In this document: one piece after another, positions 5,508-32,107 of the stretch | Numbering within the stretch: the first letter of the stretch is position 1 | Layout of the letters: each line of letters opens with the position of its first letter | Virus record (IMG/VR): IMGVR_UViG_3300046506_000137 | Coordinates: 1-32,450 of that record | Reading direction: 5' to 3' (one strand) | Source of the DNA: a virus | DNA: 32,450 bases | The notes under the pieces: model-generated | What the model saw: only the letters and a program-made list of their open reading frames with translations | What the model was told of the DNA's origin: nothing | Databases searched by the model: none | Position numbers and translations under genes: made by a program

Positions 5508-7919
5508 CTAGAGCGCGCCGTAACCGGACAATACCCACGCGCTGCCGTTATATTCGGCATCGACGAAAGCTGCCGTTGCGCTGCCGATAGTCTTGAGACC
5601 GCCTACATCCAGCGTGAAACTCCCCAATCCTGTTCGTACAATACGGAATCGATCTCCTTGCCTGGCCCCCGTCGTGCTGAGCGTAACGGTTCGATTTGCG
5701 GTGAGCGTCGTCGCCCATCGCATCGTCTTGTGATTCGAGCCTACGGTCAGTGTTTTATTAGCATCGCCCTGGTCGGCAGACACGCCTTCATAATCGCTCA
5801 ACCATGCGCGATTGACCGTCTGGCTGCCTTGCGGGTTGATAATCGTGTTGCCGTTGGCGGCTGGAGTAGAGACATTAGAATAGGCATAGGTGCCGCCTAC
5901 AAGCGCCCCCACGTAGTTCGAATCGAATACGCAACCCGAGGCAGTCGCCGCGAGCTGAAAAGCATTTCCTTGTGTCGTTTCATCGACCCCATCATGTGCA
6001 ATCTCATAGTTAAAGCGATTGCCAAAAATGTTGACCGCAGCGGAATTCCCGATCTCCATGCCGGGGTTAGCGCCGGCGCTGCTCACGCTATTCCCTGCCA
6101 CGAAACAGTTTCGGATCGTGCCGACTTTCTGACGGATCGGACTCCAGATCGCGCTGCCACCGTTTAGGCGCAATCCGCCCGTCGCAGCCCCGGTCACTTT
6201 GACTTTTTCGATCAGGAAATCAACGCTCTCGTCCGTAAGAACGAGACTCGCGCCTTTGATCTCGCCATTTCGGATCACACAGGGCGCACTGCACAGAATG
6301 CCGCTAGTACTCTCAAAATAGAATCCATCTAACACATACTGCACTAAATCAGTCTGAGCGGCATATCGCTCCACTGCGGTAGGCAGCGCCGCAATGATCG
6401 CGGAGAGATAGCCGCCAGAGGCCAACTGAGCGCCGGTGAGCGTGATGGGCACGCCGCTGATGTCCAGTCCCACGATATTGCGGATAACCTGCCGGCCCTT
6501 CTTACATCCATCGTCCATGCCCGCCCATGGTCGATAGAACAACGATTCTCCTGGCGTAGCCGCTACAATAGAGGCGGCAGAACGTACGAAAAGATTGTCA
6601 ATCTCGTAGTTGTAAGCACCGCCCAGAATGACCGCTATGCCAGCAGAAGCATTCAAATCCTCTATGCGGCAATTGGTCATTTTAAACTCGCTCATGTGCG
6701 AGGTCTGACGAAGATTGGTGGTCCCGGATGTCGCCCAGCCGAATTCGTAGACGACCCCGTTATAGGCGCCACTGCCAAATACATGATCGAGCGTCACGCC
6801 TTTCAGGCCGCCCGTCATGGCGATCAGTCCGCCGCTGGCATCGGCCACGTTGGAGGCGATGCGAACATTACGGACGGTAATGTTACCCATGGGGGAAGCG
6901 AGCAGCGAATCCCACAGGCCGGGGCGGTAGGTCGTATTGTCGTCTCCGCGCCCGCCGAACTTGAGCGCATACCCCGCGCTGGTACTCACTCCATTCATGT
7001 CGTAATCGACTTCGATACTGCCGTTCTCGATCACGAAATCGCGGATAGGCCAGATAAATCCAGAGCCGGTATCGCTGGATACCGCTGTCTTGGTGAAGTG
7101 CAGCGCACACCCGTTCAGGTCCATCCATATCCCATCTCGAATCGGGATGATGTTGTTAAAATAGTAAGTGTCAGCGCCAGTCGTGTTAGGGAAGAATATC
7201 CGCCCCTTGACGCCTGTTTCAGTCGGATCAAGCAGCGCTTTGAGCGCGGTTGTATTGGCTGTCCGGGCGGAAGTGCTATTCGGTACTAAGCCGATGCGTG
7301 CGAGATTGTACGGATACGGTCCAAAAGCATAGTCCGTCGGCGTCACTCCGGCGGATTGTTCGGCGGGGATTTGAGGCGTTAACAGTCCGCCAATCACCGA
7401 ACGCGTCAGCGTGACGCTGCTGATACCCGCAGCTGGTTCCGGCTCTCCGCTCGCATTGATGTAGACGTATTTCGAGAGCCAGTTGGCAATCGGCGAAAGC
7501 TCCGCATCGAATGTGCCGATGTCCTGCAATCTCAGGCAGGATTTCACGAGACGGCGGACGTCCTGAAGCTGGCGGGTCTGTCGATCTAATGCGGCCTCAA
7601 TAGCTTGAAGCCGAAAGGTGCCCTGATCCTCAAGGCTGGTCGGTTGCTCAATGGGCGCGTTAGAACGGATGTCGAGCGTGTGTGCCGCATAGGCAGTCGC
7701 AGCCGCAGCAATCAGCGAAATAGTCCCGCCGTCTTCATCGTTCACTGAGGCATTGGGGACGGTGTAGTGCGTATCCTTTACCAGCGTGGTCGGCGCGCCA
7801 TCGCTATCAATTGCTTTGACCGCCAGATCGTCCGCATCGAAGATGCGAAAGCTGAAGGCATAGGGGCCCGTTCCGCTGATCGTGTAACGCTCAACGGTGT
7901 CATCTACTTCGACTGTCAT
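5508..7919 (-). CDS. Tailspike / tail fibre with T7 gp17-like N-terminus and beta-helix
   Basis: The 803-residue product starts with a virion-attachment domain like that of the T7 fibre (about 1-125): a strand-rich region around PYAFSFRIFDADDLAV, then T-x-Y-T-V, I-S-L-I, L-D-I-R-S-N, a fitting EQPTSLEDQGTFRLQAIEAA helix and a coiled stem. Residues about 200-690 have the repeat pattern of a right-handed parallel beta-helix (NGCALHF, IENGSIEV, VRNVRI, LDHVFG, MTNCRIED, IRNCFVAGN, IFGNRF), as in polysaccharide-cleaving or binding tailspikes. The last about 100 residues are a beta-rich cap (TLTANRTVTLSTTGARQGD). It probably binds or degrades the host surface glycan. No lectin-type variable domain of the BPP-1 Mtd kind is visible. 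GAGG ribosome site before the ATG. Confidence 0.85.
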   Translation of the reverse strand: MTVEVDDTVERYTISGTGPYAFSFRIFDADDLAVKAIDSDGAPTTLVKDTHYTVPNASVNDEDGGTISLIAAAATAYAAHTLDIRSNAPIEQPTSLEDQGTFRLQAIEAALDRQTRQLQDVRRLVKSCLRLQDIGTFDAELSPIANWLSKYVYINASGEPEPAAGISSVTLTRSVIGGLLTPQIPAEQSAGVTPTDYAFGPYPYNLARIGLVPNSTSARTANTTALKALLDPTETGVKGRIFFPNTTGADTYYFNNIIPIRDGIWMDLNGCALHFTKTAVSSDTGSGFIWPIRDFVIENGSIEVDYDMNGVSTSAGYALKFGGRGDDNTTYRPGLWDSLLASPMGNITVRNVRIASNVADASGGLIAMTGGLKGVTLDHVFGSGAYNGVVYEFGWATSGTTNLRQTSHMSEFKMTNCRIEDLNASAGIAVILGGAYNYEIDNLFVRSAASIVAATPGESLFYRPWAGMDDGCKKGRQVIRNIVGLDISGVPITLTGAQLASGGYLSAIIAALPTAVERYAAQTDLVQYVLDGFYFESTSGILCSAPCVIRNGEIKGASLVLTDESVDFLIEKVKVTGAATGGLRLNGGSAIWSPIRQKVGTIRNCFVAGNSVSSAGANPGMEIGNSAAVNIFGNRFNYEIAHDGVDETTQGNAFQLAATASGCVFDSNYVGALVGGTYAYSNVSTPAANGNTIINPQGSQTVNRAWLSDYEGVSADQGDANKTLTVGSNHKTMRWATTLTANRTVTLSTTGARQGDRFRIVRTGLGSFTLDVGGLKTIGSATAAFVDAEYNGSAWVLSGYGAL

Positions 7920-10900: not shown

Positions 10901-11485
10901 AAAGTTCGCCAGCGCACCCTTTCCGGCCGCCAACGCATACCCCGCTCCGCCCGTCAGTTCGGGGATTCCTGCTGCCTTGGCGAGCTTCCCCGCGCCCTTC
11001 ATGCCAGTAAGGAACTGCGCCACGCCTTTGATAAGACCGCCCGTCACAGTGGCGGGCGCATTCAAGTCGGGGAATAGATCGCCCGTCTTTAGGGGATCAA
11101 TCTTTTTAGCTTCCTCCGGGCTCATCCAATGCACGCCTTCCTTGTCGAAGCGCACGCCAGCATTCATGAACTTCAGCGGAGTGCCGGCGCTTTTCTGTTC
11201 AAGCCAGCCTGACAACTCATCCCCCATATTGAACAGATTCGCATAGGCATCGCGCACGCCCTTGACGATGGCGCGCGGGGTCTCAACGATGCCGCCGCCG
11301 ATGTCCTTAACGATGCCTTTGGCAGTATCCACTACCCCGTCTTGTGGGGCAGTCGCTGGAGCCACTGGATTGGGCTTGTCTTGCGCGCCCGCACGCGCAA
11401 AAGCCTCCATCTCATCGACTGCGCCTTGACTAGCCGCAGCGGATTTATAGGCCATGAAGCTCGGGCCTAGATTCTCGCCGCTCAT
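7928..11485 (-). CDS. Large internal virion (DNA ejection) protein, T7 gp16-position
   Basis: The 1185-residue product is the largest in the window and follows the two smaller internal virion genes, as gp16 follows gp14 and gp15 in T7. It is Ala-rich and mostly helical, with Gly/Ala-rich amphipathic segments near residues 150-200 that could contact membranes, and a Pro-rich linker around 290-310 (KPPEPGGIPEPPPVIV). I see no lytic transglycosylase motif at the N-terminus, where T7 gp16 has one. The likely role is part of the trans-envelope channel that leads DNA into the cell. Coupled by ATGA (11482-11485). Placement is firm by synteny, sequence identity is not. Confidence 0.65.
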   Translation of the reverse strand: MSGENLGPSFMAYKSAAASQGAVDEMEAFARAGAQDKPNPVAPATAPQDGVVDTAKGIVKDIGGGIVETPRAIVKGVRDAYANLFNMGDELSGWLEQKSAGTPLKFMNAGVRFDKEGVHWMSPEEAKKIDPLKTGDLFPDLNAPATVTGGLIKGVAQFLTGMKGAGKLAKAAGIPELTGGAGYALAAGKGALANFTAFDPHQQRLSNLIQKFPSLQNPVTEYLASDPNDNAAEGRFKNALEGVGLGVLTDGFFKGVKILNSAIRAKTATQAAVEKVVQPAATSEEIDQLLSGKPPEPGGIPEPPPVIVRPGSQASEKLAAAAQRTSAIAPDDVVGRMVAPLEPIDSSAIGRDMTPPKTFINFARIDTGEDVQRAMQGLADKIPLNADTAKEGVRSFDQMKLDAAHTNAWDSLVARRAGEPLGDAQMLAARQLWASATDKVSQLAQEAATNPSEANLFAFRKMLATHSVIQNEVLGARASIARAQASMRIPVGSSAERLRELQFSLEASGGTDVARELARAVDGMAKAGLIHDLSATVEKGAGARTLDAAKEAWTLGLLSSPKTHLRNIVSNTAFVPTQIAERWMAGKFAGFLGDETSVQAGEAAAQYYGTTQAAKDMFRYYGKLLQTRILQTSDAFAVSTGQAPLSDLEQSMAAGDAARASNPIFATGLRGTEKLDLPARAISSEALRIPEDSWLGKGVDALGSTYGLTTNALTAEDNFYKVLAYRGETHAQAFRQARQELAQGLIDEKGIPDRMAELISSPPENIRLAAHDQALYQTFNQSPGWFGQMLLKAKHNSLFAHILIPFARTTSNLQRASFERTPLAFLVGQWRADLMAGGARRDLALARVSLGSMATLAVIDATTSGQITGRGPPDPGQRQAMAREGWKPYSWNIGGRWFTYNGISPVGDQIGMAADIAEIAKYGHEELIDGKDMENVVLAGIAAVAGNVMNKSYLSGFSSAVDALNDPNGGAAQWARQMAGSVIPTGVAALARSQDPNVRAVNSMMDAIRSRIPGMSESLPARHDLWGEPMRIDSGLGKPFDALSPVFSQKPTPEPIDQEILRLGADISMPPSSTSFNGASVNLRQRPDIYERYVELAGNELKHPAWRLGAKDYLNAVVSGNHPMSAVYRLRSDGPDGGKDVFIRETIQQYRELARRQLLKEYPDLALDVSVKREHQRALRMPVIN

Positions 11486-12972
11486 TGGGATTTCCTAGCC
11501 GGCTGGGCGGCGCTTTCTGAGAGCAGCGCGTCTTTCCATTGTTTCAAAATTTGCATTTGTCGTTGATATTCATCAGGCGCAAGTTGCCCGGCATCCCGGG
11601 CTTTAATCGTCGCTTTGGCCGTATTCTGGAGATCGAGATCGAAACGATTGCCCACTGAAAAACGTGGCATCGGCAATCCCGCCCGTTGCACGAGCATGTT
11701 GTGCGTAACGAGGTCTTGATAGGCCGCTTGCGCTTCCTTGTCTGTGGCCTTGGGATGGGAGGTAGTCCAGTCGTCCCACTGATCCAGCATGGTTCCCAGA
11801 GTTTGCTTGGCGGAAGGATCAGGATTGAGCTCGGATACGCCGGCCATGTTGGTGATGTATTGTTTGCCGCGCGGATACCAGCCGGGGCGCTGCTGTTCCA
11901 CTTCTCCAATAATGCGATCCCAGTCAGATGATCGAATCGCGCCACTTTGTAAAGCTCTGCGCGCATCGGCCCTCACGTCCTCGCCGCGACCCGCCGCTTC
12001 CCGCAGATCTGCATAAGTGGAAGCATCTCTAGGGCCTTCCCCGTTTCCAGTCAGCTTGCCGTAGAAATATCGGTAATCCTGGGCATCGAGAGTGTTTCGA
12101 TGAGCCTCAATCCAGGCTGAAGTCAACTGCCCCTGCGCAAAGAGCTTGTCGCCGTTTTTCGCGGTCGCATCGGCCGCTAGTTTCTGCTGATGCTCTTGCC
12201 GGCGAACTTGCGCATCCTCTTCCGACAAGATACGACGCTGCAACGATTCCACGGCCGTATCGTCCATGTTGGGAGCGTTCACGGCGAGATATTCACTGGC
12301 CTTACCGATCTGCTGCATTCCAATCATTCGCCCCACAACCCCGGTATGAAGATCAGACTGAGCGGCCCGTAACGCGACATCCTTCTGAGCAGACGACCAC
12401 CCCTTGCGGGAGGCTTGCTGCTCAATCACAGCACGCTGACGATTCAGCTCTTCTGATACTCGTATAGGATCGTTCCAATGATTCGCCGCGCTATCGACGC
12501 TTTGCAGAACGTAAGATTTCGCCTCGTTGTCCGCATAGACTTCGCGTTGCTGTACTTCGTGACCTGCTAACTCGCGCTCGATATCTAAACGGCGCTTACC
12601 GGCCGCTTCCTGAAAGACCCGTTTTGCACGGGGCGTGACGAGACTGCCGGCGACCCGGGCTGTCTGTTGATCGTACTGAGTCAGCGTAGGGCCGCTGATT
12701 CGAATGGCATCTTTGCCCTGCTTGGTGAGCGCGCCATTCTGCGGATCGTAGAGCAGGCCATTTTCAACCTGGCCCAGCTGGCGATCCGCTTCCGTGACGG
12801 CGGTTTGATCGGCCTGCAACTGCTCGCGCTGCTTGACTTCAAACAGTGCTCCCGCCACATCCTGAATTCCCCCGCCCAACGCCTGCAAGCCATTCGGCGC
12901 AGCCTGTCGTGGAGCGATCTGTAAAGGAGTGGACGCAACTTGAGTGTTCGTCAGACGCGGGATGCTAGGCAC
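11482..12972 (-). CDS. Internal virion (DNA ejection) protein, T7 gp15-position
   Basis: The 496-residue product is almost wholly helical and charged, with long Gln/Ala/Arg-rich stretches typical of podovirus ejection proteins. A Pro/Thr-rich N-terminus (SIPRLTNTQVASTPLQIAP) leads into a GLQALGGGIQDVAGALFEV segment that I recall from internal core proteins of this phage group. In T7, gp15 forms the periplasmic part of the ejectosome. GTG start at 12972, overlapping the preceding gene by 8 bases. The C-terminus overlaps the large ejection protein gene by ATGA. Confidence 0.7.
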   Translation of the reverse strand: MPSIPRLTNTQVASTPLQIAPRQAAPNGLQALGGGIQDVAGALFEVKQREQLQADQTAVTEADRQLGQVENGLLYDPQNGALTKQGKDAIRISGPTLTQYDQQTARVAGSLVTPRAKRVFQEAAGKRRLDIERELAGHEVQQREVYADNEAKSYVLQSVDSAANHWNDPIRVSEELNRQRAVIEQQASRKGWSSAQKDVALRAAQSDLHTGVVGRMIGMQQIGKASEYLAVNAPNMDDTAVESLQRRILSEEDAQVRRQEHQQKLAADATAKNGDKLFAQGQLTSAWIEAHRNTLDAQDYRYFYGKLTGNGEGPRDASTYADLREAAGRGEDVRADARRALQSGAIRSSDWDRIIGEVEQQRPGWYPRGKQYITNMAGVSELNPDPSAKQTLGTMLDQWDDWTTSHPKATDKEAQAAYQDLVTHNMLVQRAGLPMPRFSVGNRFDLDLQNTAKATIKARDAGQLAPDEYQRQMQILKQWKDALLSESAAQPARKSQ

Positions 12973-19487: not shown

Positions 19488-19793
19488 TTAGGGGGCGAAG
19501 CTCTCTTGCATCATCGTCAGGTATGTGCGCTCGTCGGCTTCGACGATCCAGGCTTTGAGCATCTGGCCGGCATCGCGACGACCTGAGCTGTATGCAGCTA
19601 GTGCTGCGTTAGGGTTGAACGTCGTTTGCTCGACCCCGCACTCACCCATGAAGCGCCATAAGAAGCGGCGACCCTCCACGGTAGTCAGCACGGCTTTCAG
19701 GTCGAGCAGGTCCTGTGCATGATTGCGTTTGACCTTGCGTTCGCGTTCCTTGACCTGCTTATGGTCGGCGGCGTTGAAGCCTTCCTCAGCCAT
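19488..19793 (-). CDS. Bbp19-family protein
   Basis: The 101-residue product has the pattern R-R-F-L-W-R-F-M-G-E-C-G-V near residue 42, a middle A-A-L-A-A-Y-S-S-G-R-R-D-A-G region and a closing W-I-V-E-A-D-E-R-T-Y-L-T-M-M-Q-E. These match the Bbp19-type proteins of BPP-1-like phages, found directly upstream of the capsid genes. The function is unknown; small helical proteins at this position may help capsid assembly. Overlaps the glycosyltransferase gene by 8 bases and is followed by the strong terminator. Confidence 0.75.
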   Translation of the reverse strand: MAEEGFNAADHKQVKERERKVKRNHAQDLLDLKAVLTTVEGRRFLWRFMGECGVEQTTFNPNAALAAYSSGRRDAGQMLKAWIVEADERTYLTMMQESFAP

Positions 19794-20439
19794 AGTTCAC
19801 GAGCTTGATGCGCGGCTTTTCAATCACGGCATCTTCAAGGCGATAGCTGTACTGGCCGAGGTGCTGGACTTCCTGGGACAGATCGATGTCCAGCCACACG
19901 CCGAATCCCTGTTCGCGCGCGCGGTCGCAAAACACGTTGTCCTCACTGATGCACTCGCCTTGCGGGCTCCACATCACGGGGAAGTAAGGCTTGGTAAGCT
20001 TCTCGAACACTTTCATGTTGATGAGCAGGCAGCCGGTGGCGATACGTGAGACTTCGCGCAAACCAGGCTGGCCGATTTGCCCGGCACTGCCATCGAGCTC
20101 GCGGTGCGTCAGGTCGAACGGGCCGCGGCGCTTGGTGTACGTCGCGCCGACGATGTCCTTACCGTGCGACATGAGCCGTTCCAGCGTCTGCGGCGGGACC
20201 ATCATGTCGCTGTCGAGAAAGAGTAGGTGTGTGGCTTCAATCTGCTGGGCAGCTGCTACGAGGTTATTCCGTCCTACTTCCACCAGTGAGCACTTGCTGT
20301 TGACCAGGCCGTGGCGAATGCCTTTTACGAGGCAGTAGTGCTGCAGCATCAGCCAGCAGGCCACGGCATCGGCATGCACCATGTCGTTTGACGGAATGGC
20401 GATGCAGGTTTTAGTAGGAGCAGCGGTTACAGGGCTCAA
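19786..20439 (-). CDS. GT-A fold glycosyltransferase (family 2-like)
   Basis: The 217-residue product shows a nucleotide-sugar glycosyltransferase core: a first strand C-I-A-I-P-S, a helix with R-N-N-L-V, and the metal-binding D-S-D in H-L-L-F-L-D-S-D-M-M-V (residues 71-81), followed by I-V-G-A-T-Y, a late acidic S-E-D-N-V-F pair (acceptor base candidate) and a C-terminal Gln-His. The fold transfers a sugar from a UDP/GDP donor to an unknown acceptor. It has a TTG start at 20439 preceded by GGAGG, and overlaps the radical SAM gene by 29 bases. Embedded in the head gene cluster rather than at its border, so a virion- or glycan-related target is inferred. Short forms like this occur in many phages. 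Confidence 0.8.
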   Translation of the reverse strand: MSPVTAAPTKTCIAIPSNDMVHADAVACWLMLQHYCLVKGIRHGLVNSKCSLVEVGRNNLVAAAQQIEATHLLFLDSDMMVPPQTLERLMSHGKDIVGATYTKRRGPFDLTHRELDGSAGQIGQPGLREVSRIATGCLLINMKVFEKLTKPYFPVMWSPQGECISEDNVFCDRAREQGFGVWLDIDLSQEVQHLGQYSYRLEDAVIEKPRIKLVNYG

Positions 20440-21232
20440 TCGACCTCCGGCTCAATAAGTGCTCGCGTCTCTCACGCCAATGCGGCGCGTTGTAGACCTC
20501 AAGCAGAGAATGGGTATTCAGATCGCCAATAGAATGTTCATCTCCGCTCGCCATGCAGCAGAGCGATACACGGCCCGTCGCCATGATCGAGAGCTCAAAC
20601 CAGCGGCCACAGGGGGTGTCTGGAATGCCGGGAAACTGCGCATCTACGTAGCCGAGCCACGAATCCTGTTTGATGAGCGTCGGCCTGAACTTCGGCCAGC
20701 GCTCTTTCACGTAGGCGATAAAGCCATCATCAGGCCCGACCTTCGACACCACCACCGGATGCGGGAAGGCCATCGCATGCAGCGCATCCAGGCGCTTGAC
20801 GGTGATCTCGAACTTGAGCGACATCAGCGCTTCGTACTTCGCCGGGTCGTGCTCGTTGAGTGATATCCATAAATGCTCGACGTTGCGTAGCCCGCCAATC
20901 ATCAGCGCCTTGCCCTCGGTGAGCGGGCTGCCATTGGTAAACAGCCTTAGCCTCGCTTGAGGAACGTGCTCGTTCATCATCCGACACAGCGGGCCGAGGC
21001 GCTGGTCAAGAAGAGGCTCGTTCAATTTGAAGGGGCTGAAGAAAAACGGCAGCTCAAATGCCGCCATCTCCTCCACCAGCCGTTCGATCAGCTCGTCTGG
21101 CATCCGCGCGCCCTTGCGCTCTATCGTGGGATAGGGGCAGAACGTGCAGGCTGCGTTACACAGAGCCAAGGTCTCAAGCGAGACCTCTTTCGGTTGACTG
21201 ACGTAGCGCTCGCGCAGCTGGACAAAGTTCAC
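20411..21232 (-). CDS. Radical SAM protein with C-terminal SPASM-like Cys cluster
   Basis: The 273-residue product has the radical SAM signature C25-x3-C29-x2-C32 (C-N-A-A-C-T-F-C) that binds the [4Fe-4S] cluster and cleaves S-adenosylmethionine to a 5'-deoxyadenosyl radical. It then has a typical barrel (L-F-T-N-G-S-P-L, W-I-S-L-N-E). The C-terminus carries a Cys-rich cluster (P-C-G-R-W, S-L-C-C-M-A-S-G-D, E-P-C-N-R-C) with G-D-L-N-T-H-S-L-L-E-V, like SPASM/twitch domains that hold an extra Fe-S cluster. A longer open frame reaches 21505, but the GTG at 21232 overlaps the methyltransferase stop (GTGA) and removes 91 unlikely residues. Substrate unknown; SPASM enzymes modify peptides or carbohydrate-type substrates. 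Confidence 0.8.
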   Translation of the reverse strand: MNFVQLRERYVSQPKEVSLETLALCNAACTFCPYPTIERKGARMPDELIERLVEEMAAFELPFFFSPFKLNEPLLDQRLGPLCRMMNEHVPQARLRLFTNGSPLTEGKALMIGGLRNVEHLWISLNEHDPAKYEALMSLKFEITVKRLDALHAMAFPHPVVVSKVGPDDGFIAYVKERWPKFRPTLIKQDSWLGYVDAQFPGIPDTPCGRWFELSIMATGRVSLCCMASGDEHSIGDLNTHSLLEVYNAPHWRERREHLLSRRSIEPCNRCSY

Positions 21233-21765
21233 ACACTGATCCGCGAAGGCTTCACCGCTCTCAACACAAAGGCGAACGTCTGGCCGTTGTCCTCTTGGAC
21301 CATGATGTCGAAGTCGGCCTTGTAAAAGGATCTGAAGTCGCTCATGGGCGTCTTGCCAATCTGCGCTGTGTACTGAGGCTGATTCAGGAACGTGAGCGAC
21401 TGAGAACTGATAACCCGGCGATGTGATGGGTCTCCCCATAACCACGGACTGCTCACACTCGGACACGTCGCGAACAGCAACCCGCCAGGCTTCAACACCC
21501 GCCATATCTCACTGAAGTGCGCACAGAATGCTTTCGCATCGCCTTGCTGGCCGAGGTGCTCCAAAATTTCAAATCCATGCACTTCATCGAATGAGCCGTC
21601 CTTGAACGGCCAGGGCAGCTGCTCAAGATCGTGAACCACGTCCGGCTCATGGCTCGCCTCAATATCCAATCGCGTGAGGTCTTGCCATTCAAGCGTCTGC
21701 CCCAGGTCTGGCAAATACATCACCTTCGCTCGGCGTGAGCCGCAGCCGATTAACAACTCACTCAC
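21229..21765 (-). CDS. Class I SAM-dependent methyltransferase
   Basis: The 178-residue product has the Rossmann SAM-binding motif I (L-L-I-G-C-G) at the extreme N-terminus, an acidic D-I-E-A-S strand end, H-D-L-E-Q-L-P-W-P-F-K-D-G-S-F-D-E-V (motif IV region) and W-R-V-L-K-P-G-G-L-L-F-A-T-C-P (motif V/VI). This is the methyltransferase 11/25 layout common in glycan and small-molecule methylation. The frame is open to 21816, but the GTG at 21765 gives a GTGA overlap with the gene upstream and matches the family start. The type of acceptor cannot be read from sequence. Translation is coupled on both sides, so it is made with the radical SAM protein and glycosyltransferase. Confidence 0.8.
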   Translation of the reverse strand: MSELLIGCGSRRAKVMYLPDLGQTLEWQDLTRLDIEASHEPDVVHDLEQLPWPFKDGSFDEVHGFEILEHLGQQGDAKAFCAHFSEIWRVLKPGGLLFATCPSVSSPWLWGDPSHRRVISSQSLTFLNQPQYTAQIGKTPMSDFRSFYKADFDIMVQEDNGQTFAFVLRAVKPSRISV

Positions 21766-22067
21766 TTCGCCGCCCACCCGGTATTCGTTGTATTCGATTC
21801 CTTGACGTACAGGCACGTTCCTGCACCGCCATCGGTGCGCTGATACAAAGCGCCCTTCGTAGCGGTCACCACGCCCTCTGGGCTTCCCGTGCCGCTGAAT
21901 AGCCGTTGAACGGTCGACGGCAAGTCCGCCGCAAGGTGCGAATGAGACGCGGCTGCTTTCGCTGCCAACGCGGAAGCCACCACCGCGCTCGCCACAGGAA
22001 CCGCTCGTGGATAAATGCCCGCCTCGCTCGGTTGAGCGATCTCATGAGGGACAGCTTTGACCCTCAC
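21762..22067 (-). CDS. Small structural protein with fibre-tip-like C-terminus
   Basis: The 101-residue product has a Pro/Val-rich start, a low-complexity Ala stretch and then a C-terminal segment G-S-P-E-G-V-V-T-A-T-K-G-A-L-Y-Q-R-T-D-G-G-A-G-T (split here for clarity) followed by L-Y-V-K-E-S-N and G-W-A-A-K. The G-S-P-E-G-V ... R-T-D-G-G-A-G-T ... Y-V-K-E-S motif is frequent at the ends of phage fibres and small structural proteins. It may decorate the portal vertex or the capsid. GTG start at 22067, GTGA overlap with the portal stop; the protein is thus made directly after the portal. Confidence 0.65.
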   Translation of the reverse strand: MRVKAVPHEIAQPSEAGIYPRAVPVASAVVASALAAKAAASHSHLAADLPSTVQRLFSGTGSPEGVVTATKGALYQRTDGGAGTCLYVKESNTTNTGWAAK

Positions 22068-24193: not shown

Positions 24194-25654
24194 TCAATTC
24201 CTACTTGAGTCGTAAGGGTCATAGTCCGTCAGGCATTTGCCCATCTTGTCCTGACCGAACGGGTTTCGATTCACATGGACCGGCGCAGCGAAGGTAGTCG
24301 CCAATGCGTCCGCTAGATCAGGAGAGCGCCCCAAGCGCGCTTTCACTTGGTCCTTCTCTTCCAAAATCAGCCTGTCACCCTTGAACGTGTAGAGCGGCGT
24401 GGTTAGCTCAGCGACAATCTCAGGCACGTTCGGCAATGCGCCGCCGTCTTTGATCCACTGGCACATCTCGAACCAAATCTCAGCACGCTTGTTGAAATAC
24501 TTTGGATCGGTTGCCTTGCCCGCAAACTGCACTTCAAGCGGCGAGCGTCCCATGGCTCTCAGCGCCACACGCCAGCCAGAAGCCCAGCCACCGGTCGCAT
24601 CGATAAAGCAGGCATCGGCCTTCCATTCCGTCCACTTCTGCGCTACCACTCCCGCACCGTGCTCATCCTCAGCATTGCGCAACACGATAGGGGTAAAGCT
24701 CGCCAAGCCCTGGCGCGGGAAGATCACGGATCGATCATCGCCAAACCGCGCCACATCCACCCCCAGCACGCGAGGCGAAAACACGTACTGCGGTTCAAGC
24801 AAATGCCGCCCTATGGCCTCATTGACCTGATCGGGACCAATCAGCGCATTTAAGCTCGACGGCGGGAAGCGACCGAAGATGTTGACCAGCACATAAGGGT
24901 TGTCTGCGCCATGCGCCTTGATCTGCTGTCTCGCCCATTCAATCGGAACACGAGGGCTGCGCTTCGGATCGTCAGGATCGCCCGTGATGGAGATCAACTT
25001 CCACTGATCGCGCTCAATGGTGGCTGCACGATACAGCGGCCCCTCAAGATGCGTCGGGTTTCCAGCCTGGACGATATGCCACTCAAGGGGAGCGCCCGAG
25101 CCGATGCCTTGAGCGGCCACCATCACGCCAGTCGGAATGCCGCCTGACTCATCCAGCACCGCCATAACGTACGGAGCATGTAGTCCCGCCCACGTATTGG
25201 CCTGCTGGCTAGAGTCCGCATCGCGAGGCCAATTCTTGGCGCTGATCCACTTCTCGCGTCCTACCTCATCACTCTCTTTCGAGAAGATGCGCTCTGCTGT
25301 CCACTGAAACAGCTCTTTGAGAAGCGGGCTGCGGTTCTGCCAAATCGCCAACTCAGCCCACAAGTTATCCTTGAGGTTCTGACCGCTGATTGCCGTGACG
25401 CCAATCTTGCACGGCGCGGGACGCGTCAGAACGAAGTTCCAGCACAGCCACGCGAGAACAGCGGTTTTGCCAGGACCCTTGCACGCAAGCAAGGCTAGCT
25501 GCGGGGTCGTCGGAAAGCATGCCAGCGCTTCGTCCTGCCACGGGTCTGGCGTTACCCCGAAAAGCTCCCGCACCATCACCTGCGGCTTCTCACGCCACAG
25601 CCGAATGCGCTCAGCCGCTTGGTCTTGAGTCGGTTCCCGTAAGACTGCGGACAA
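24194..25654 (-). CDS. terL: Terminase large subunit (DNA packaging ATPase and nuclease)
   Basis: The 486-residue product has an N-terminal W-x-D-P helix region (V-T-P-D-P-W-Q-D, about 34-41), a Walker A-type loop A-C-K-G-P-G-K-T (57-64, with Ala instead of the first Gly), a Walker B V-M-A-V-L-D-E (163-169) and a nuclease with D300 (L-G-V-D-V-A-R-F-G-D-D), D352 (F-I-D-A-T-G-G) and D449 (D-L-A-D-A). It pumps DNA into the procapsid and cuts the concatemer. TTG start at 25654, immediately after an in-frame TGA and 7 bases after GGAG, so the start cannot lie further upstream. It overlaps the small gene upstream by 44 bases. Confidence 0.9.
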   Translation of the reverse strand: MSAVLREPTQDQAAERIRLWREKPQVMVRELFGVTPDPWQDEALACFPTTPQLALLACKGPGKTAVLAWLCWNFVLTRPAPCKIGVTAISGQNLKDNLWAELAIWQNRSPLLKELFQWTAERIFSKESDEVGREKWISAKNWPRDADSSQQANTWAGLHAPYVMAVLDESGGIPTGVMVAAQGIGSGAPLEWHIVQAGNPTHLEGPLYRAATIERDQWKLISITGDPDDPKRSPRVPIEWARQQIKAHGADNPYVLVNIFGRFPPSSLNALIGPDQVNEAIGRHLLEPQYVFSPRVLGVDVARFGDDRSVIFPRQGLASFTPIVLRNAEDEHGAGVVAQKWTEWKADACFIDATGGWASGWRVALRAMGRSPLEVQFAGKATDPKYFNKRAEIWFEMCQWIKDGGALPNVPEIVAELTTPLYTFKGDRLILEEKDQVKARLGRSPDLADALATTFAAPVHVNRNPFGQDKMGKCLTDYDPYDSSRN

Positions 25655-25877
25655 TCAGGGACTCCAGAGAATGGCGAACTTCGCCACTCACGTTGAGATC
25701 ACGCGGAATTAACTTGCTCACCAATCCCATGAAGGCGCCAGGGTTCTCCCTGGCCTGCTGGGCGAGATATTCTTCACCCCCGGCTGCGGCCAGGGCGTTT
25801 TCGATCATCTCCTTCAACGTCGCTGTAGACTTGTTATGCGAGCCTTTCAATCGCCCGCCTGTCTTTTTACCTCGCAT
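25611..25877 (-). CDS. Putative terminase small subunit
   Basis: The 88-residue product begins with K-T-G-G-R-L-K-G-S-H-N-K-S-T-A-T-L-K-E, a basic start known from small phage proteins placed before the large terminase gene, then an A-A-G-G-E-E-Y-L-A-Q-Q-A-R-E-N-P-G-A-F-M-G-L-V-S-K-L-I-P segment (given here with breaks). The position and 44-base overlap with terL argue for the DNA-recognition subunit of the packaging motor. No classical HTH is visible, so this rests mainly on position and the shared pattern. Only a weak ribosome site precedes the ATG. Confidence 0.65.
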   Translation of the reverse strand: MRGKKTGGRLKGSHNKSTATLKEMIENALAAAGGEEYLAQQARENPGAFMGLVSKLIPRDLNVSGEVRHSLESLIVRSLTGTDSRPSG

Positions 25878-25901: not shown

Positions 25902-26228
25902 TCACTGATATCGTACCTTTCTGAACTTGCGCCTACGGGCGCGATGGCGCCTGCGCTTCGCGATTTGGAGCAGCCCGCCCCCCAGTCCAGCCGTAGCCGG
26001 CTCCTCCCCCAGGCTCAAGGTGAGCGTGATGGTGGAGCCGGGGTCGATGTCAGCGCCTTCGGTCTGGTCCAGCGCCATGACCGTGCCGACGTCGTAGAGC
26101 GTGCTGTATTGGCTTGTGGCGTAGGCGACGAGCAGGTCGGCGGTCGCGAGTGCCTCTTCGGCGGCCTCTTGCGTCAACCCTTTGAGCGGATCAGGGACCG
26201 TGGTTTGACCAACGCGGATGTCTACCAT
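25902..26228 (-). CDS. PASTA-domain protein with Arg-rich C-terminal tail
   Basis: The 108-residue product contains one PASTA domain (residues 9-76): V-P-D-P-L-K-G-L-T-Q-E-A-A-E-E-A-L, then a beta part with G-T-V-M-A-L-D-Q-T-E-G and a closing D-I-D-P-G-S-T-I-T-L-T-L-S-L-G. PASTA domains bind peptidoglycan or beta-lactam-like ligands in Ser/Thr kinases and PBPs. After a Gly linker the protein ends in a very basic segment, R-R-R-H-R-A-R-R-R-K-F-R-K-V-R. No signal peptide is visible. The ATG at 26228 forms TAATG with the upstream exported protein gene, so a longer start at 26267 is rejected. It may be a virion or cell-wall component; unproven. Confidence 0.75.
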   Translation of the reverse strand: MVDIRVGQTTVPDPLKGLTQEAAEEALATADLLVAYATSQYSTLYDVGTVMALDQTEGADIDPGSTITLTLSLGEEPATAGLGGGLLQIAKRRRHRARRRKFRKVRYQ

Positions 26229-28141
26229 TACTGCCAGGTCACCGAGTCGCCGGTGATGTCCGTGCACTTCAGCTGAATGTTGAGCGTCTTGGCGCGCACG
26301 GTGGCTGTGCCTTGCAACGTGCTGCTGCTGATCGAGAGGCCCGTGGGCAGGCTATCTACGTTCGTCACCGTGATCGCATCGCCCTCGGGGTCTGTGCAAT
26401 AAGGCGTCAGGTCAACCGGCGTCATGGCCGAGTTGAGCGGGACGAAGAACGTCAGCGAATTCGGCTCGGGCGGAATGGGCGGCAGGTTGTTCGCCCAGAA
26501 GTCCAAGTCGTCTGCGTGGATGCCTCCCACGCTCAAGTCATAGAACGTGCAATTGAGGTATTGCCTCGAGCTGTCGCCGGAGTAGCTGATGTTTCCATCC
26601 AGCCCAATGGTCGCGGCAAAACTTCCTGGCGTAGTCACGCTGTCGCAGGTGGGGATATCACCCGCTGCAATATCGGGGGTGATCGATGCATTCAACGTGT
26701 CAATCGGCGAGCCCGTCCCAATGCTCGTCAATCCGCTGGGACAGTTGATGACTTGCTTGCCACTCGGGGCGTCCAGGCACTCATCCGCGAGCGTGTGAAC
26801 CGCCGCTTCGTGCTGACTGCCATACGTGCCTACCACGTAAATGTCGTACACAGGAAAGGTGAGCGCACTGCCCAATGCAAACGTCCCCGTTGCGTCATCA
26901 TTCGATGAGGCTTGCGGGCTACTCGCACTCGCACAATGCGCGGCCTCCACGTCGGTGACTGATGGAGCCGTTGCATCCTTCTTGCATGCCACGGCATACA
27001 CCGTTCCGGCTCCATCCAGGGTCTTCGTGATCGTGTACGCGACATCCGACTGCGCGCTGATCGACGGCGTCACACTAAAAGCCGGAATCTTGTACATGTC
27101 CGCGATGCTCGCGACCGTACTGTCTCCATTCACCGTACTGTTGAGACAGAAATAACCGTCTCTCAGCGTCCCGTCCGTGTAGGTGCTGAATGTTCCCGTG
27201 TTCTGGACGGTGGTGGTCATGGCCACAGGACCAAAGGCCTTGTAAGCCGCCGTGCCGCCTGAATTCTGCCCCGCCTTCACCTGGGTACACGTGGGAGCGC
27301 CAGAGCCATCCACTACCGCCACCCCGTAGTAGTTGCAGTCCGTGCAGGCCGTGGTCGCCGTGACGGGAATCGTGCTGGTAGTGCGCGTTCCAATCGCGGG
27401 CGAGACACTAAACGTCGGCGGGGTCAGGTCGCCTGATTTCAGCGCCAGCACTAACGAGCCATAAGGGGCGCTTTCTGCTATCGATTGCGTCCACGCGGAA
27501 GACGTGAAGTTCGTCGCCGTGGTCTGAATCGTGTAGTCCGCGATAAACCCGACATCGGTTCCGTTATTCCATTGCGTCCAGGCTCTCGCTCCGGTCAATC
27601 CGGTGGGACTGGTAATCGTCGCGCCATCCGCTGTCACTGTTTTGGACTTCTTGCCCACACCGAGCAACAGCACGTTGTTCTCAGGCACCGTCACCGACGT
27701 ATTGGGGATGTTCGCCGTGTTAGATGAGCTACCCGCAATGCCGCTCGCCGCCACAATGCCCGTGCAGGTGGTCGGCACATTTCCAAACAACGCGAGCGCT
27801 ATGCCCCGAGTGTTGCTCGTGCCGGTGAAATCAACGCTCGGGATTGCATCCCCGCTTTGATAGATGCGACACCAGATCGCCAACGAATCATTGGTGGTCG
27901 AAGACGTATCCAGTAATAACGTCCAGCCTGAAGGGTCCGACGGCTGGGTATCCGTCGCCGCCCTCGCCCCCACGATCAAAATCAGCGGCGTCGTATTTGC
28001 GATGACGCCCGCGGGCATGCCGGGCGTGATCCCTCCGGTTCCACTGGCCGCCGTACCCGCGACCACCGAAGTGTAATTTCCCGTTCCTGCGAGCGCGATT
28101 GAGCAGAGCGAGCAGGCCAGGAAGGCAATGAGCTGACGCAT
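26228..28141 (-). CDS. Large secreted multidomain beta-sandwich protein
   Basis: The 637-residue product has a clear Sec signal peptide (M-R-Q-L-I-A-F-L-A-C-S-L-C-S-I-A-L-A-G, cleavage about 19). The mature part begins with a beta-sandwich region (about 20-245) with S-G-W-T-L-L-L-D and a later W-T-Q-W-N-N-G-T. Next come Ig/FN3-like modules with paired Cys, each starting with F-S-V-(S/T)-P (about 255 and 365), and a C-terminal cadherin/He_PIG-like module (Y-C-T-D-P-E-G-D-A-I-T-V ... L-P-T-G-L-S-I-S). It is coupled by TAATG at both ends. The longer frame starting at 28240 adds 33 residues without sense. Function unknown; cell-surface or extracellular adhesion is inferred. Confidence 0.75.
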   Translation of the reverse strand: MRQLIAFLACSLCSIALAGTGNYTSVVAGTAASGTGGITPGMPAGVIANTTPLILIVGARAATDTQPSDPSGWTLLLDTSSTTNDSLAIWCRIYQSGDAIPSVDFTGTSNTRGIALALFGNVPTTCTGIVAASGIAGSSSNTANIPNTSVTVPENNVLLLGVGKKSKTVTADGATITSPTGLTGARAWTQWNNGTDVGFIADYTIQTTATNFTSSAWTQSIAESAPYGSLVLALKSGDLTPPTFSVSPAIGTRTTSTIPVTATTACTDCNYYGVAVVDGSGAPTCTQVKAGQNSGGTAAYKAFGPVAMTTTVQNTGTFSTYTDGTLRDGYFCLNSTVNGDSTVASIADMYKIPAFSVTPSISAQSDVAYTITKTLDGAGTVYAVACKKDATAPSVTDVEAAHCASASSPQASSNDDATGTFALGSALTFPVYDIYVVGTYGSQHEAAVHTLADECLDAPSGKQVINCPSGLTSIGTGSPIDTLNASITPDIAAGDIPTCDSVTTPGSFAATIGLDGNISYSGDSSRQYLNCTFYDLSVGGIHADDLDFWANNLPPIPPEPNSLTFFVPLNSAMTPVDLTPYCTDPEGDAITVTNVDSLPTGLSISSSTLQGTATVRAKTLNIQLKCTDITGDSVTWQ

Positions 28142-30492
28142 TAGTTCGTATCGCATCCTTGCGTGTAAATGCTCGGGCAACTCGTGTGCGTCAGCGCATT
28201 CGCGCCTGTTTGAATGTAAGGCAGAATTCCACCGCTCCACTGCTGACTCGCGCTACCTGAAAAAGTGTTGCGATCCCAAAAGACGTGACTGGCTTGCAGG
28301 GTATCGTTGGCATAATCGCGCAACTGATCGATGGTGCAATTGCCCAACACCCCGCCCATCTCTGAGGCTTCCACGCTATAGAGCACGGGGATCTCGCTTC
28401 GATAATCATGCCCTCCTGACGTCCCGGTCAGTGTGTTGTAAGCGTAGGGCGTTTGAGTCGTGCAAGCGGTCGGCAATACATCCGGCCCGCCCATTCCCGC
28501 CTGGACGGAGGACAAATAGGCGATATGAGAATTCGTCGTGCTCTGACTGACCAGATAGTTGATCGATTCAATGACGTTGGACTTCTTGAAGACTGCCACT
28601 TCCGCGGCCACCATCCTGCGATACGAGGAGTCATACGCCGCGCCGGTATATCCACACGGAGTGGTCGATCCTAAAGCCGCGGCTGATTCGCGATTGAGAT
28701 ACAACCCTTCAAAATACGGTTCATCGTCAAATGCCGCTGCGTAAGCACTCAACATCGCAATGTAGTGATCCATCGCGGTCGAGTCCCAGCGACACCAGCC
28801 CACGCCATTGGTCCCTTGATAGGTATAGGTGCCGCTGACGTACGCGGGGAAATAGTTAGAGACGCCGCCGCTTCCGCCATAGTGGAAGTCCATCAGGCGA
28901 ATGAAGAGCCGCTTGGGCACCGCAAGCCCTTTGAGCTTGTTCACCTCCGCTTGAATCGTTGCGATTCCCGCGGCGTAGTCTCCGGCACTCGCGCCCTCAA
29001 GCTGCGACCAGCGAAACGGGACTACCACCCCGATAACGTGAGTGTCCGAAGCGATCGCATCGTAGTAACCAAACCGCGTCGATTGCACGAGGTCTGCATT
29101 GCCTCGGGTAATCTGCATGTAATGGCCGGGATGCCATTTCTTGAGCGGGACCGCATTAGGCGTCGCGGATATCGAACCGGAATAAGCCGAGAGGTTGTCG
29201 TTAACATCCTGGCTGGTCGCATCGATGGTGACGGTACTGGCCGTGGTTTTGGCGTAACTCCAACGTGCGACGTTGTTGAGATTCCAGTTCGTCAGGCTCG
29301 CCGTGGCGTTGGTCGCCGCCGTCGTGCTGGTGATGAACGTGCCCCAGTACACAGTCGAGGCCATCGAGAGCGTGAAGGTCGCCCCCGCCGTCCAGGTGAC
29401 CCCGCTATCGGTCGAGTAATCGAACTGCCAGCTATTCGTCGCCACGGTGCGCGTCAAGCGCAGCGAGAGCGTTCCCGTGACAGTTTGGGAAAGCTGTGAG
29501 GCCGTCGTGACACCATCTGTCGCGCGGGTCTTGCACTGGACCTTTTTCGTCGCGCTATTCTGGACGTAGCAGTAAACCGCCTTAGCGCCTACTGCGTTGG
29601 ATTCCGCAACGCGAATGCCCGCCTTCGGGAAAGAAGCCGCGCTCGTGATGCTCGATATCGTGACGGTCGCGAAAGCATCCCCTGCAATGCCCGTGGCGTC
29701 CGTGAACGCCAGAATCTGGTCTGCCGTGCTATCGACTCCCGCGCCTCCAAAGCCCAGCGAGAGCGCTGTGCCGGTTTGCGTCGAGGCGGGAGTCCCGTCA
29801 CTCGATCCAATGATCTGCTGCGTCAGCGCACGAGAGAGTCCTTGCCCAACAGAAACAGTCGTCGTACCGCCCGTGCCGTTGAATCGTAAATTGATTTGCT
29901 TGACGCGACTTGCCGAAGGGGGCGGGTCAGAGGGCGCATCGCCCGTGATCGTGACGGAATTGCTTCCAGGGGTGTAAGCCAACCCAGTGGGAATCGTCGG
30001 GGCCACCGTTTCTCCCGCAGGAGGCGCGGCGAACGACCAGTTTCGGGTTGAACAGTCCACACTATTGCCGCTGGTCGTGCCACGGACCTTGAGCGCCCCG
30101 GCACCGGCATTGCTGCCTGCATTGGTGAGGTTATTCCCGGCCCCGGCACTGGAGATCGCCCAACCATTCGTCGCGGCGTTATCGCCTGAGACCGTGACGA
30201 CGGTCAGGGTTGCAGTTGCGGCGGCCGAACCGCCGAAAAACTGACGCACATCCGCGCTATAAGCGGAGCCCGTTGAGAGCCCCGTCAAAGCCGGCGCGGC
30301 GGCATCGCTGCACGTCAACGTTCCTGTGGTGGGCGGCGCGCAATCACTGCGATCAGCCAGGACGCAGGGGAAAGCAGTGCTGTATACGCCATCCGCATTT
30401 GCCCTGGTCGTCACGCGCACGTTGATTGCTTCCACTTCAATGCCGCATAGCAGCAACATCAAAGTGATTACAATCTGTGAAATGCGTCTCAT
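28141..30492 (-). CDS. Secreted protein with lectin-like and glycoside-hydrolase-like domains
   Basis: The 783-residue product has a Sec signal peptide (about 1-22), an N-terminal Cys-containing beta region, a concanavalin-like sandwich (about 200-405: A-G-I-R-V-A-E-S, W-Q-F-D-Y-S-T-D-S-G-V-T-W), a short FN3-like linker, and a TIM-barrel-like C-terminal domain from about 452. In it, P-F-R-W-S-Q-L-E-G (492-500) resembles the W-S-x-L-E motif of GH-A clan enzymes. E602 (L-Y-L-N-R-E) and E708 (V-L-Y-S-V-E) are candidate acid/base and nucleophile at strands 4 and 7. Predicted action: hydrolysis of a polysaccharide outside the cytoplasm. No known family recognised. ATG at 30492 with a weak ribosome site; first gene of the leftward operon as far as visible. 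Confidence 0.7.
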   Translation of the reverse strand: MRRISQIVITLMLLLCGIEVEAINVRVTTRANADGVYSTAFPCVLADRSDCAPPTTGTLTCSDAAAPALTGLSTGSAYSADVRQFFGGSAAATATLTVVTVSGDNAATNGWAISSAGAGNNLTNAGSNAGAGALKVRGTTSGNSVDCSTRNWSFAAPPAGETVAPTIPTGLAYTPGSNSVTITGDAPSDPPPSASRVKQINLRFNGTGGTTTVSVGQGLSRALTQQIIGSSDGTPASTQTGTALSLGFGGAGVDSTADQILAFTDATGIAGDAFATVTISSITSAASFPKAGIRVAESNAVGAKAVYCYVQNSATKKVQCKTRATDGVTTASQLSQTVTGTLSLRLTRTVATNSWQFDYSTDSGVTWTAGATFTLSMASTVYWGTFITSTTAATNATASLTNWNLNNVARWSYAKTTASTVTIDATSQDVNDNLSAYSGSISATPNAVPLKKWHPGHYMQITRGNADLVQSTRFGYYDAIASDTHVIGVVVPFRWSQLEGASAGDYAAGIATIQAEVNKLKGLAVPKRLFIRLMDFHYGGSGGVSNYFPAYVSGTYTYQGTNGVGWCRWDSTAMDHYIAMLSAYAAAFDDEPYFEGLYLNRESAAALGSTTPCGYTGAAYDSSYRRMVAAEVAVFKKSNVIESINYLVSQSTTNSHIAYLSSVQAGMGGPDVLPTACTTQTPYAYNTLTGTSGGHDYRSEIPVLYSVEASEMGGVLGNCTIDQLRDYANDTLQASHVFWDRNTFSGSASQQWSGGILPYIQTGANALTHTSCPSIYTQGCDTN

Positions 30493-30527
30493 GAACTCAC
30501 GGATACCCTGTTATGCTAGGTGTGTAT

Positions 30528-30698
30528 ATGAAGCGCACCAACGTTCACCTGCCTTTGCCGCTGCTCGCAAGACTCAAGAAGCAGGCGAAAAAAAAAGACT
30601 TGACGGTCGCCGAACTCATACGACGATCTGCCGAGCATTACCTCAATCTCAAGGATTTAAGGAAGACCAAAAATGAGCCTGAAAAGCAACATTCGTAA
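30528..30698 (+). CDS. Ribbon-helix-helix (CopG-type) DNA-binding protein
   Basis: The 56-residue product is a classic RHH: a leading strand (K-R-T-N-V-H-L-P) followed by two helices (P-L-L-A-R-L-K-K-Q-A-K-K-K and T-V-A-E-L-I-R-R-S-A-E-H-Y-L). Such dimers repress their own operon or serve as antitoxins. The ATG at 30528 has AGGTG at 30518-30522. A longer frame starts at 30513 but adds only five residues. It lies divergent from the secreted protein gene with only 35 bases between the starts, so it may control both directions. The Lys codons contain nine consecutive A (30588-30596), a possible slippage site. No toxin gene is recognised next to it. Confidence 0.7.
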   Translation: MKRTNVHLPLPLLARLKKQAKKKDLTVAELIRRSAEHYLNLKDLRKTKNEPEKQHS

Positions 30699-31239
30699 CA
30701 TTTGCCAAAAAGCCATCCCTCTGCCCTGGTTCGTCCTGCAATACAACCGCTCTTCCGCGAAGGTCACCGCCAAGCGATCACGCGATACGTTGTTCTCAGA
30801 ATTTCTGTCGGAAACTTCCGGCCCTTGCCTGCAAATTGCAGTCAAAGACGAACACGGAGAGAAATTCGGTCCCAACTGGACCTCAGTCGATAAATTCGAC
30901 CATTCCGCGCGAATTGATCGGCACGATGACGTACAGGATCTCCAGTTCCCTGACGCCTCGTTTAACGCGGTGGTGTGCTGGTCCGTCCTGGAGCATGTGC
31001 CGGAACCGCATAAGGCGATTGCCGAAATGCATCGGGTTCTCAAGCCCGGCGGCGTGATCTGGGTGCAACTCCCCTTCCTGTTTCCCTACCACGCCGATCC
31101 GCATGACTACTGGCGCGTCACCCCCAGCGGCCTTCGCATGTGGATGAGAAAATTCGATGAAACAGCCTGCGCTTGCGATTACTGGGCGAGAAGCAAAATC
31201 GTGGCCGCGACTTATTTCTATGGACATAAATCAAAATAA
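30673..31239 (+). CDS. Class I SAM-dependent methyltransferase-like protein
   Basis: The 188-residue product has the later half of a methyltransferase 11 fold: Q-D-L-Q-F-P-D-A-S-F-N-A-V-V-C-W-S-V-L-E-H-V-P, then H-R-V-L-K-P-G-G-V-I-W-V-Q-L-P-F, then D-P-H-D-Y-W-R-V-T-P-S-G-L. The typical glycine-rich motif I (G-x-G-x-G) is not visible; the N-terminal part has only L-Q-I-A-V-K-D. It could bind SAM in an unusual way or be a degenerate member. The D-Y-W-R-x-T-P-x-G element is common in methyltransferases of polysaccharide loci. It overlaps the RHH gene by 26 bases and is followed by two small membrane genes. Confidence 0.75.
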   Translation: MSLKSNIRNICQKAIPLPWFVLQYNRSSAKVTAKRSRDTLFSEFLSETSGPCLQIAVKDEHGEKFGPNWTSVDKFDHSARIDRHDDVQDLQFPDASFNAVVCWSVLEHVPEPHKAIAEMHRVLKPGGVIWVQLPFLFPYHADPHDYWRVTPSGLRMWMRKFDETACACDYWARSKIVAATYFYGHKSK

Positions 31240-31744: not shown

Positions 31745-32107
31745 CTACTGGATCACCACTGTCGTGACCGGCTTGGCCGATGGACTCTGCACCACCCCGC
31801 ATGCCTCCGGGGATCGGGCCGATTCGTTCGCGCCGTTGAGCAATACCGAGATCGTATAGCAGTTGCTCTGCCCAGCTGGATACAGAGCGCTCGTGACGCT
31901 GGTTGCGGCCACGCCGGTCATGAGCTTCACTTCCGCCGCCCCGGCCAACTTGGCGTAAACGTTGTACGTCACCGCTACCGTGGTGGGAATCGCAGTCCCG
32001 TTCGTGTACTGGGTCGCCGCCGGCCAGGAGATTTTCTGCGCATTCGTCAGCGTCTGGCCATAGGCGAGACTCGACGCCAGCACGAGAGCGGCGATCAGAT
32101 AGCGCAT
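31745..32107 (-). CDS. Secreted FN3-like protein
   Basis: The 120-residue product has a Sec signal peptide (M-R-Y-L-I-A-A-L-V-L-A-S-S-L-A-Y-G) followed by a single fibronectin type III-like domain: I-S-W-P-A-A-T, V-T-Y-N-V-Y-A-K, S-N-C-Y-T-I-S-V, then the G-A-N-E-S-A-R-S-P end strand motif. A pair of Cys could form a disulphide. The ATG at 32107 has GGAG five bases before it; a longer frame from 32194 is unlikely. It is the third signal-peptide protein in the right third of the window. The domain is usually a binding module; a ligand cannot be named. Confidence 0.7.
   Translation of the reverse strand: MRYLIAALVLASSLAYGQTLTNAQKISWPAATQYTNGTAIPTTVAVTYNVYAKLAGAAEVKLMTGVAATSVTSALYPAGQSNCYTISVLLNGANESARSPEACGVVQSPSAKPVTTVVIQ

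Follow-up and report, generated by a model that had tools for sequence, protein, structure and literature searches.

A predicted exported, glycan-directed gene pair coupled to the terminase genes of an uncultured phage

Gene Order around the Terminase Genes

The window, meaning the whole stretch of DNA analysed here, comprises 32,450 bases recorded from an uncultured virus, probably a podovirus. The genes around the terminase are as follows.

24194–25654, minus strand: terminase large subunit (TerL); phrog_2, E=3.6e-22; 52% identity to Xanthomonas phages CP2/SAC
25611–25877, minus strand: small-terminase-like (TerS-like) gene; phrog_11043 (function unknown), E=9.6e-13, and position
25902–26228, minus strand: PASTA protein, 108 aa, Arg-rich C-terminus, without signal peptide; PF03793, E=1.5e-9
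26228–28141, minus strand: gene2, 637 aa; signal peptide, minor-tail-type beta-sandwich, Cys-bearing repeats, He_PIG Ig domain; 16 Cys
28141–30492, minus strand: gene1, 783 aa; signal peptide, FN3/ConA-like beta region, C-terminal GH-A-like KWHPGHY barrel; 13 Cys
30513–30698, plus strand: RHH (CopG-type) regulator-like gene, divergent from gene1; PF01402, E=3.6e-7
30673–31239, plus strand: SAM methyltransferase, overlapping the RHH gene; PF08241, E=5.6e-15
31745–32107, minus strand: gene0, a third signal-peptide protein, 120 aa, FN3-like by eye, 2 Cys; signal-peptide rule and sequence

Gene1, gene2 and the PASTA gene form a block that runs on into the TerS-like gene and TerL, all on the minus strand. 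The TAATG overlaps with which the initial annotation joined the first three genes are present at 28141 between gene1 and gene2 (GAACTAATGCG) and at 26228 between gene2 and the PASTA gene (CAGTAATGG). A gap of 24 nt separates the PASTA gene from the TerS-like gene, which follows it and overlaps TerL. Because gene1 and gene2 are coupled to the terminase, their late expression is likelier than lysogenic expression. Their GC content is ordinary for the window, and no consensus promoter was found. Phages with close TerL relatives lack the gene1/gene2 set, which indicates that it is an added module.

The gap between the RHH gene and the start of gene1 is ~20–35 nt. The RHH and methyltransferase genes sit as a plus-strand pair between gene0 and gene1; this pair and gene0 were overlooked in the earlier reading. 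Gene0 weakly matches an FN3-like gene preceding a related gene pair in another phage locus, L003.

The PASTA domain scores 38.1 bits against a Pfam cutoff of 23.2. In PADLOC, the PASTA protein matches the C-terminal part of the PD-T4-6 models only, and gene0, gene1 and gene2 are without an anti-phage defence match.

At 228–286, the window contains the 3' part of a tRNA with a CCT anticodon loop and without the D arm (Rfam E=0.0055). Positions 1–111, adjoining this fragment, encode an integrase-like C-terminus, read by eye. The two are a probable attachment site, and based on the tRNA fragment, the phage is probably temperate.

Predicted Export

Signal peptides were called by a simple fixed rule devised for this analysis, together with inspection.

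30427–30492, minus strand: gene1 Sec signal peptide, 22 aa, MRRISQIVITLMLLLCGIEVEA^INV, ATG at 30492; sequence and rule; AlphaFold helix 2–14
28088–28141, minus strand: gene2 Sec signal peptide, 18 aa, MRQLIAFLACSLCSIALA^GTG, ATG at 28141; sequence and rule

Both N-termini show the canonical Sec/SPase I n-h-c layout with a cleavage motif by rule and inspection. The two large proteins with Sec signal peptides of about 19 and 22 residues described initially are thus confirmed at 18 and 22 aa, with coordinates and strand right. The PASTA protein, which had been counted in the exported set, fails the rule; its Pfam domain and TAATG coupling stand, and it has no recognisable export signal.

Among large ORFs (≥250 aa) in the examined phage loci, 9 of 189 pass the rule versus 3 of 189 with a shuffled N-terminus, a comparison that is a control and no survey, since the loci were chosen as relatives. 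Eight of the nine are members of this kind of gene set. Besides, the Cys content of the signal-peptide-bearing proteins is 2.00%, versus 0.68% in relatives without a signal peptide (p=0.0004, a value that overstates independence, as the counts come from related proteins). The high Cys content fits an oxidising compartment.

Signal-peptide export is known for phage enzymes. Sec-exported endolysins such as Lys44 of fOg44 are held outside the cytoplasm until lysis (review, PMC6116005). Gene1 and gene2 resemble them in their predicted export, although Sec-exported endolysins target peptidoglycan; neither gene has a lysin match in Pfam or PHROG.

The Gene1 Barrel

29233–30015, minus strand: beta-rich, possibly ConA-like region of gene1, residues ~160–420; alignment A11, low pLDDT
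28144–29139, minus strand: GH-A-like TIM barrel of gene1, residues 452–783, KWHPGHY family; profile, AlphaFold, Foldseek
28687–28689, minus strand: codon of E602, end of beta4
28369–28371, minus strand: codon of E708, end of beta7

Searches of whole gene1 and gene2 against Pfam, PHROGs and NCBIfam gave nothing reliable. Model confidence is low outside the barrel, and the N-terminal half of gene1 is modelled poorly by AlphaFold. A lectin-type module is not confirmed for the beta-rich region, which matches neither Pfam nor PDB profiles.

The GH-A-like barrel at the end of one of the proteins, also proposed initially, is borne out for gene1 by three agreeing lines. A PDB profile search finds GH42/GH35 beta-galactosidases (down to 3.4e-6); the AlphaFold model has eight strands, with pLDDT mostly >90 over residues 452–783; and Foldseek matches GH5-type enzymes. 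Gene1 thus contains the (beta/alpha)8 barrel typical of clan GH-A. The barrel shares its fold, a W..LE..G.YDF motif and a Glu at the end of beta4 with GH42 and GH35. Unlike them, it is a single barrel of ~330 aa with a new conserved KWHPGHY start and a variable beta7 residue, and it scores below the Pfam GH42 and NCBIfam GH35 cutoffs.

The acid/base Glu at the end of beta4 is E602. This residue is kept in 91 of 92 family sequences, as are E499, E595 and D671. At the E708 position the family has E in 32, M in 30 and Q in 20 of the 92. It is Glu in the window, in the clade of metagenome-assembled genome (MAG) copies containing the window barrel, and in the phage locus L009. Most others have M, Q or D, and phage members without a signal peptide have Gln or Tyr. 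In the model, E602 and E708 occupy the acid/base and nucleophile strand ends. Since E708 varies across the family, the standard GH-A pair cannot be taken for granted as the catalytic residues. The gene1 barrel may hydrolyse host-surface polysaccharide.

The KWHPGHY Family in Bacteria

The family scan sampled each bacterial and archaeal species with a single genome and accepted bacterial members only with an exact KWHPGHY, which makes the motif invariant among them by construction. It found 159 bacterial loci, of which the best 79 were kept. The bacterial members are mostly single barrels of 380–450 aa. All 84 testable members have a hydrophobic N-terminal segment ahead of KWHPGHY, and the family is apparently secreted in several phyla. 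In Nitrosomonas, the family is strongly expanded, often as two tandem copies (L039, L063, L065, L077, L089 and other loci).

In the maximum-likelihood tree, the window barrel is nested in a gammaproteobacterial secreted clade together with MAG copies (100/98), to which it is 41–46% identical. Long phage branches outside the window clade are placed unsurely in this tree. Descent of the window barrel from the tail versions without a signal peptide is not supported by the tree, where it groups with secreted proteins of bacteria instead. Based on the phylogeny, a host-type origin of the gene1 barrel is proposed.

Two copies in Niabella lie in a SusC/SusD-type locus with sulfatases, and the MAG copies have sulfotransferase, flippase and sugar-transferase genes nearby. 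Sulfatases occur near 8 of the 79 loci, a count without a background rate and concentrated in lineages likely rich in sulfatases. Such surroundings fit work on glycans. An alternative is that the exported barrel digests environmental polysaccharide and feeds the infected cell, as was proposed for other soil-virus glycoside hydrolases. Soil phages encode an active GH5 endomannanase (PMC6786970), a chitosanase is known from a soil virus (PMC9485262), and the Niabella locus is of the polysaccharide-use type. Like these hydrolases, gene1 and gene2 represent phage-borne, putatively carbohydrate-active proteins of uncultured viruses. They differ in family and in forming a set of two genes for predicted exported proteins, one a tail-type adhesin, with coupling to the terminase; the text of neither paper mentions signal peptides or secretion. 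The pairing with a tail-type adhesin and the contiguity with packaging genes make it likely that the barrel is produced too late to supply replication, and no uptake genes were recognised in the window. Feeding of the infected cell is therefore considered highly improbable.

Domains of Gene2

27431–28087, minus strand: beta-sandwich domain of gene2, common to phage minor tail proteins; alignment A7 plus 18 viral loci, BFVD Foldseek
26240–26437, minus strand: He_PIG Ig-like domain of gene2; PF05345, E=1.1e-6, above cutoff

The first domain of gene2 is present in 18 viral loci, in several of which it belongs to minor tail proteins encoded 3' of a tape-measure-like gene. In a Foldseek search of BFVD, the model of this domain hits predicted minor tail proteins (E down to 8.5e-8). 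The N-terminal domain of gene2 thus has the fold shared by minor tail/adhesin proteins at tail loci. At the C-terminus, the Ig-type module suggested initially corresponds to the He_PIG domain detected by Pfam. Viral scans with the alignment of signal-peptide-bearing gene2 proteins and with its Cys repeat found only the phage loci L092 and L094, and a gene2 scan of Gammaproteobacteria gave a match in 1 of 369 sampled genomes.

Related Sets in Other Phages

The neighbourhood survey in phages, which the initial annotation had called for, revealed sets with signal peptides among head or tail genes in L009, L092 and L094. Including the window, four phages, all uncultured, have such sets. L092 encodes 930-aa and 628-aa signal-peptide proteins adjoining the portal gene. 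L094 encodes 808-aa and 576-aa ones among tail genes, with the gene for the distal tail protein on one side and further tail genes on the other. In L009, three consecutive genes for signal-peptide proteins separate the capsid genes from the tail genes. The E-values of the locus searches apply to candidate stretches only. A tblastn search of 50,697 phage records with gene1, gene2, the PASTA protein and gene2 of L092 and L094 gave no match.

The gene2 proteins of the window, L092 and L094 are alignable over most of their length at 25–28% identity. The catalytic part is more changeable. Among these sets, the KWHPGHY barrel is seen in the window and L009. By eye, L092 has another barrel-like region, and a beta-helix-like region replaces the barrel in L094.

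The barrel protein of L009 (9287–11188) ends with a hydrophobic stretch and RRRR. This ending resembles C-terminal sorting signals, although the Synerg-CTERM match (E=0.13) falls short of the cutoff. In L092, small proteins with signal-peptide-like N-termini (6032–6370 and 12022–12384) flank the pair; the first failed the rule. In L094, a PASTA domain at 10970–11260 is split by a -1 shift between gene2 and the next ORF, where the rest of the domain continues into a tail protein. This could be a frameshift, a split domain or a sequence error.

The same gene pair, with the barrel gene first and the beta-sandwich gene second but both without signal peptides, is located at the tail loci of L002, L003 and L007. 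The tail locus of L105 also has a pair without signal peptides, whose first gene has a related-looking C-terminus. With these pairs and the minor-tail fold of gene2, the argument that virion proteins lack signal peptides and that gene1 and gene2 are hence non-virion proteins is too strong. Attachment to virions after export is the main rival. Here, the exported proteins would acquire their disulfides in the periplasm and join the tails at lysis as receptor-binding or depolymerase fibres. The position of the L094 set next to the distal tail protein, and the continuation of its PASTA domain through the -1 shift into a tail protein, also speak for such maturation. However, export keeps the proteins away from the site of virion assembly, the literature searched offered no earlier case of a tail adhesin with a signal peptide, and the phage has its own 803-aa presumed tailspike (5508–7919). 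On balance, we regard virion adhesins maturing outside the cytoplasm as rather unlikely.

The locations of these sets also bear on lysogenic conversion, another role offered initially, in which the prophage would express the set and thereby change the surface of the host, its biofilm or its superinfection by other phages. In favour, a temperate lifestyle is probable from its tRNA fragment and the adjoining integrase-like C-terminus, the divergent RHH gene could regulate gene1, and the set is missing from close TerL relatives. Nevertheless, it is contiguous and coupled with TerS-TerL, the other signal-peptide-bearing sets lie within head or tail modules, and no promoter was found. Lysogenic conversion is thus disfavoured, and we consider it less probable still than virion attachment.

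Proposed Role

The secreted, glycan-directed nature first suggested for these products is supported by predicted signal peptides, high Cys content, a barrel of a secreted family and the sets in three other phages. Our preferred reading, in which the chances of being right and wrong are about balanced, is that gene1 and gene2 are a late-expressed, exported glycan-binding and hydrolysing pair that strips host-surface polysaccharide. From late transcription through actual export and catalysis to substrate and benefit, we infer the following course. Gene1, gene2, the PASTA gene, TerS and TerL would be translated from one late transcript. The gene1 and gene2 proteins would cross via Sec and have their signal peptides removed. 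In a diderm host, the periplasm would then be where they fold and form disulfides, gene1 bearing the glycoside-hydrolase clan A-like domain and gene2 being the tail-type adhesin. They might be secreted before lysis or freed by it, and would then bind and cut the polysaccharide surrounding the host population, so that progeny could escape debris and biofilm or get to new cells.

Tail-associated depolymerases and adhesins likewise combine binding modules with a swappable catalytic domain, and gene2 shares their minor-tail fold. Gene1 and gene2 differ from them in their Sec signal peptides, high Cys content and position before TerS in the window. It can be speculated, with somewhat less confidence than the role of the pair itself, that some phages have remodelled adhesin/depolymerase genes of the virion into a module that is exported through Sec and held by disulfides. 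This module would be expressed with head and tail genes, take an interchangeable catalytic domain from secreted host enzymes, and act beside virions or dock on them after lysis.

The sets in four phages suggest how phages might attack the polysaccharide around their host. If this is true, phages export tail-type adhesins and sugar-cutting domains from the living host, beyond carrying them on virions, and the pair could be tested as a phage-derived means of acting on capsules and biofilms. It would also draw attention to the KWHPGHY family as an uncharacterised GH-A-like family.

Elsewhere in the window, a Radical-SAM/SPASM protein, a glycosyltransferase-like protein and a methyltransferase are encoded between the portal and capsid genes (19786–21816). 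A radical-SAM gene similar to that of the window is seen at 332–1201 of L011.
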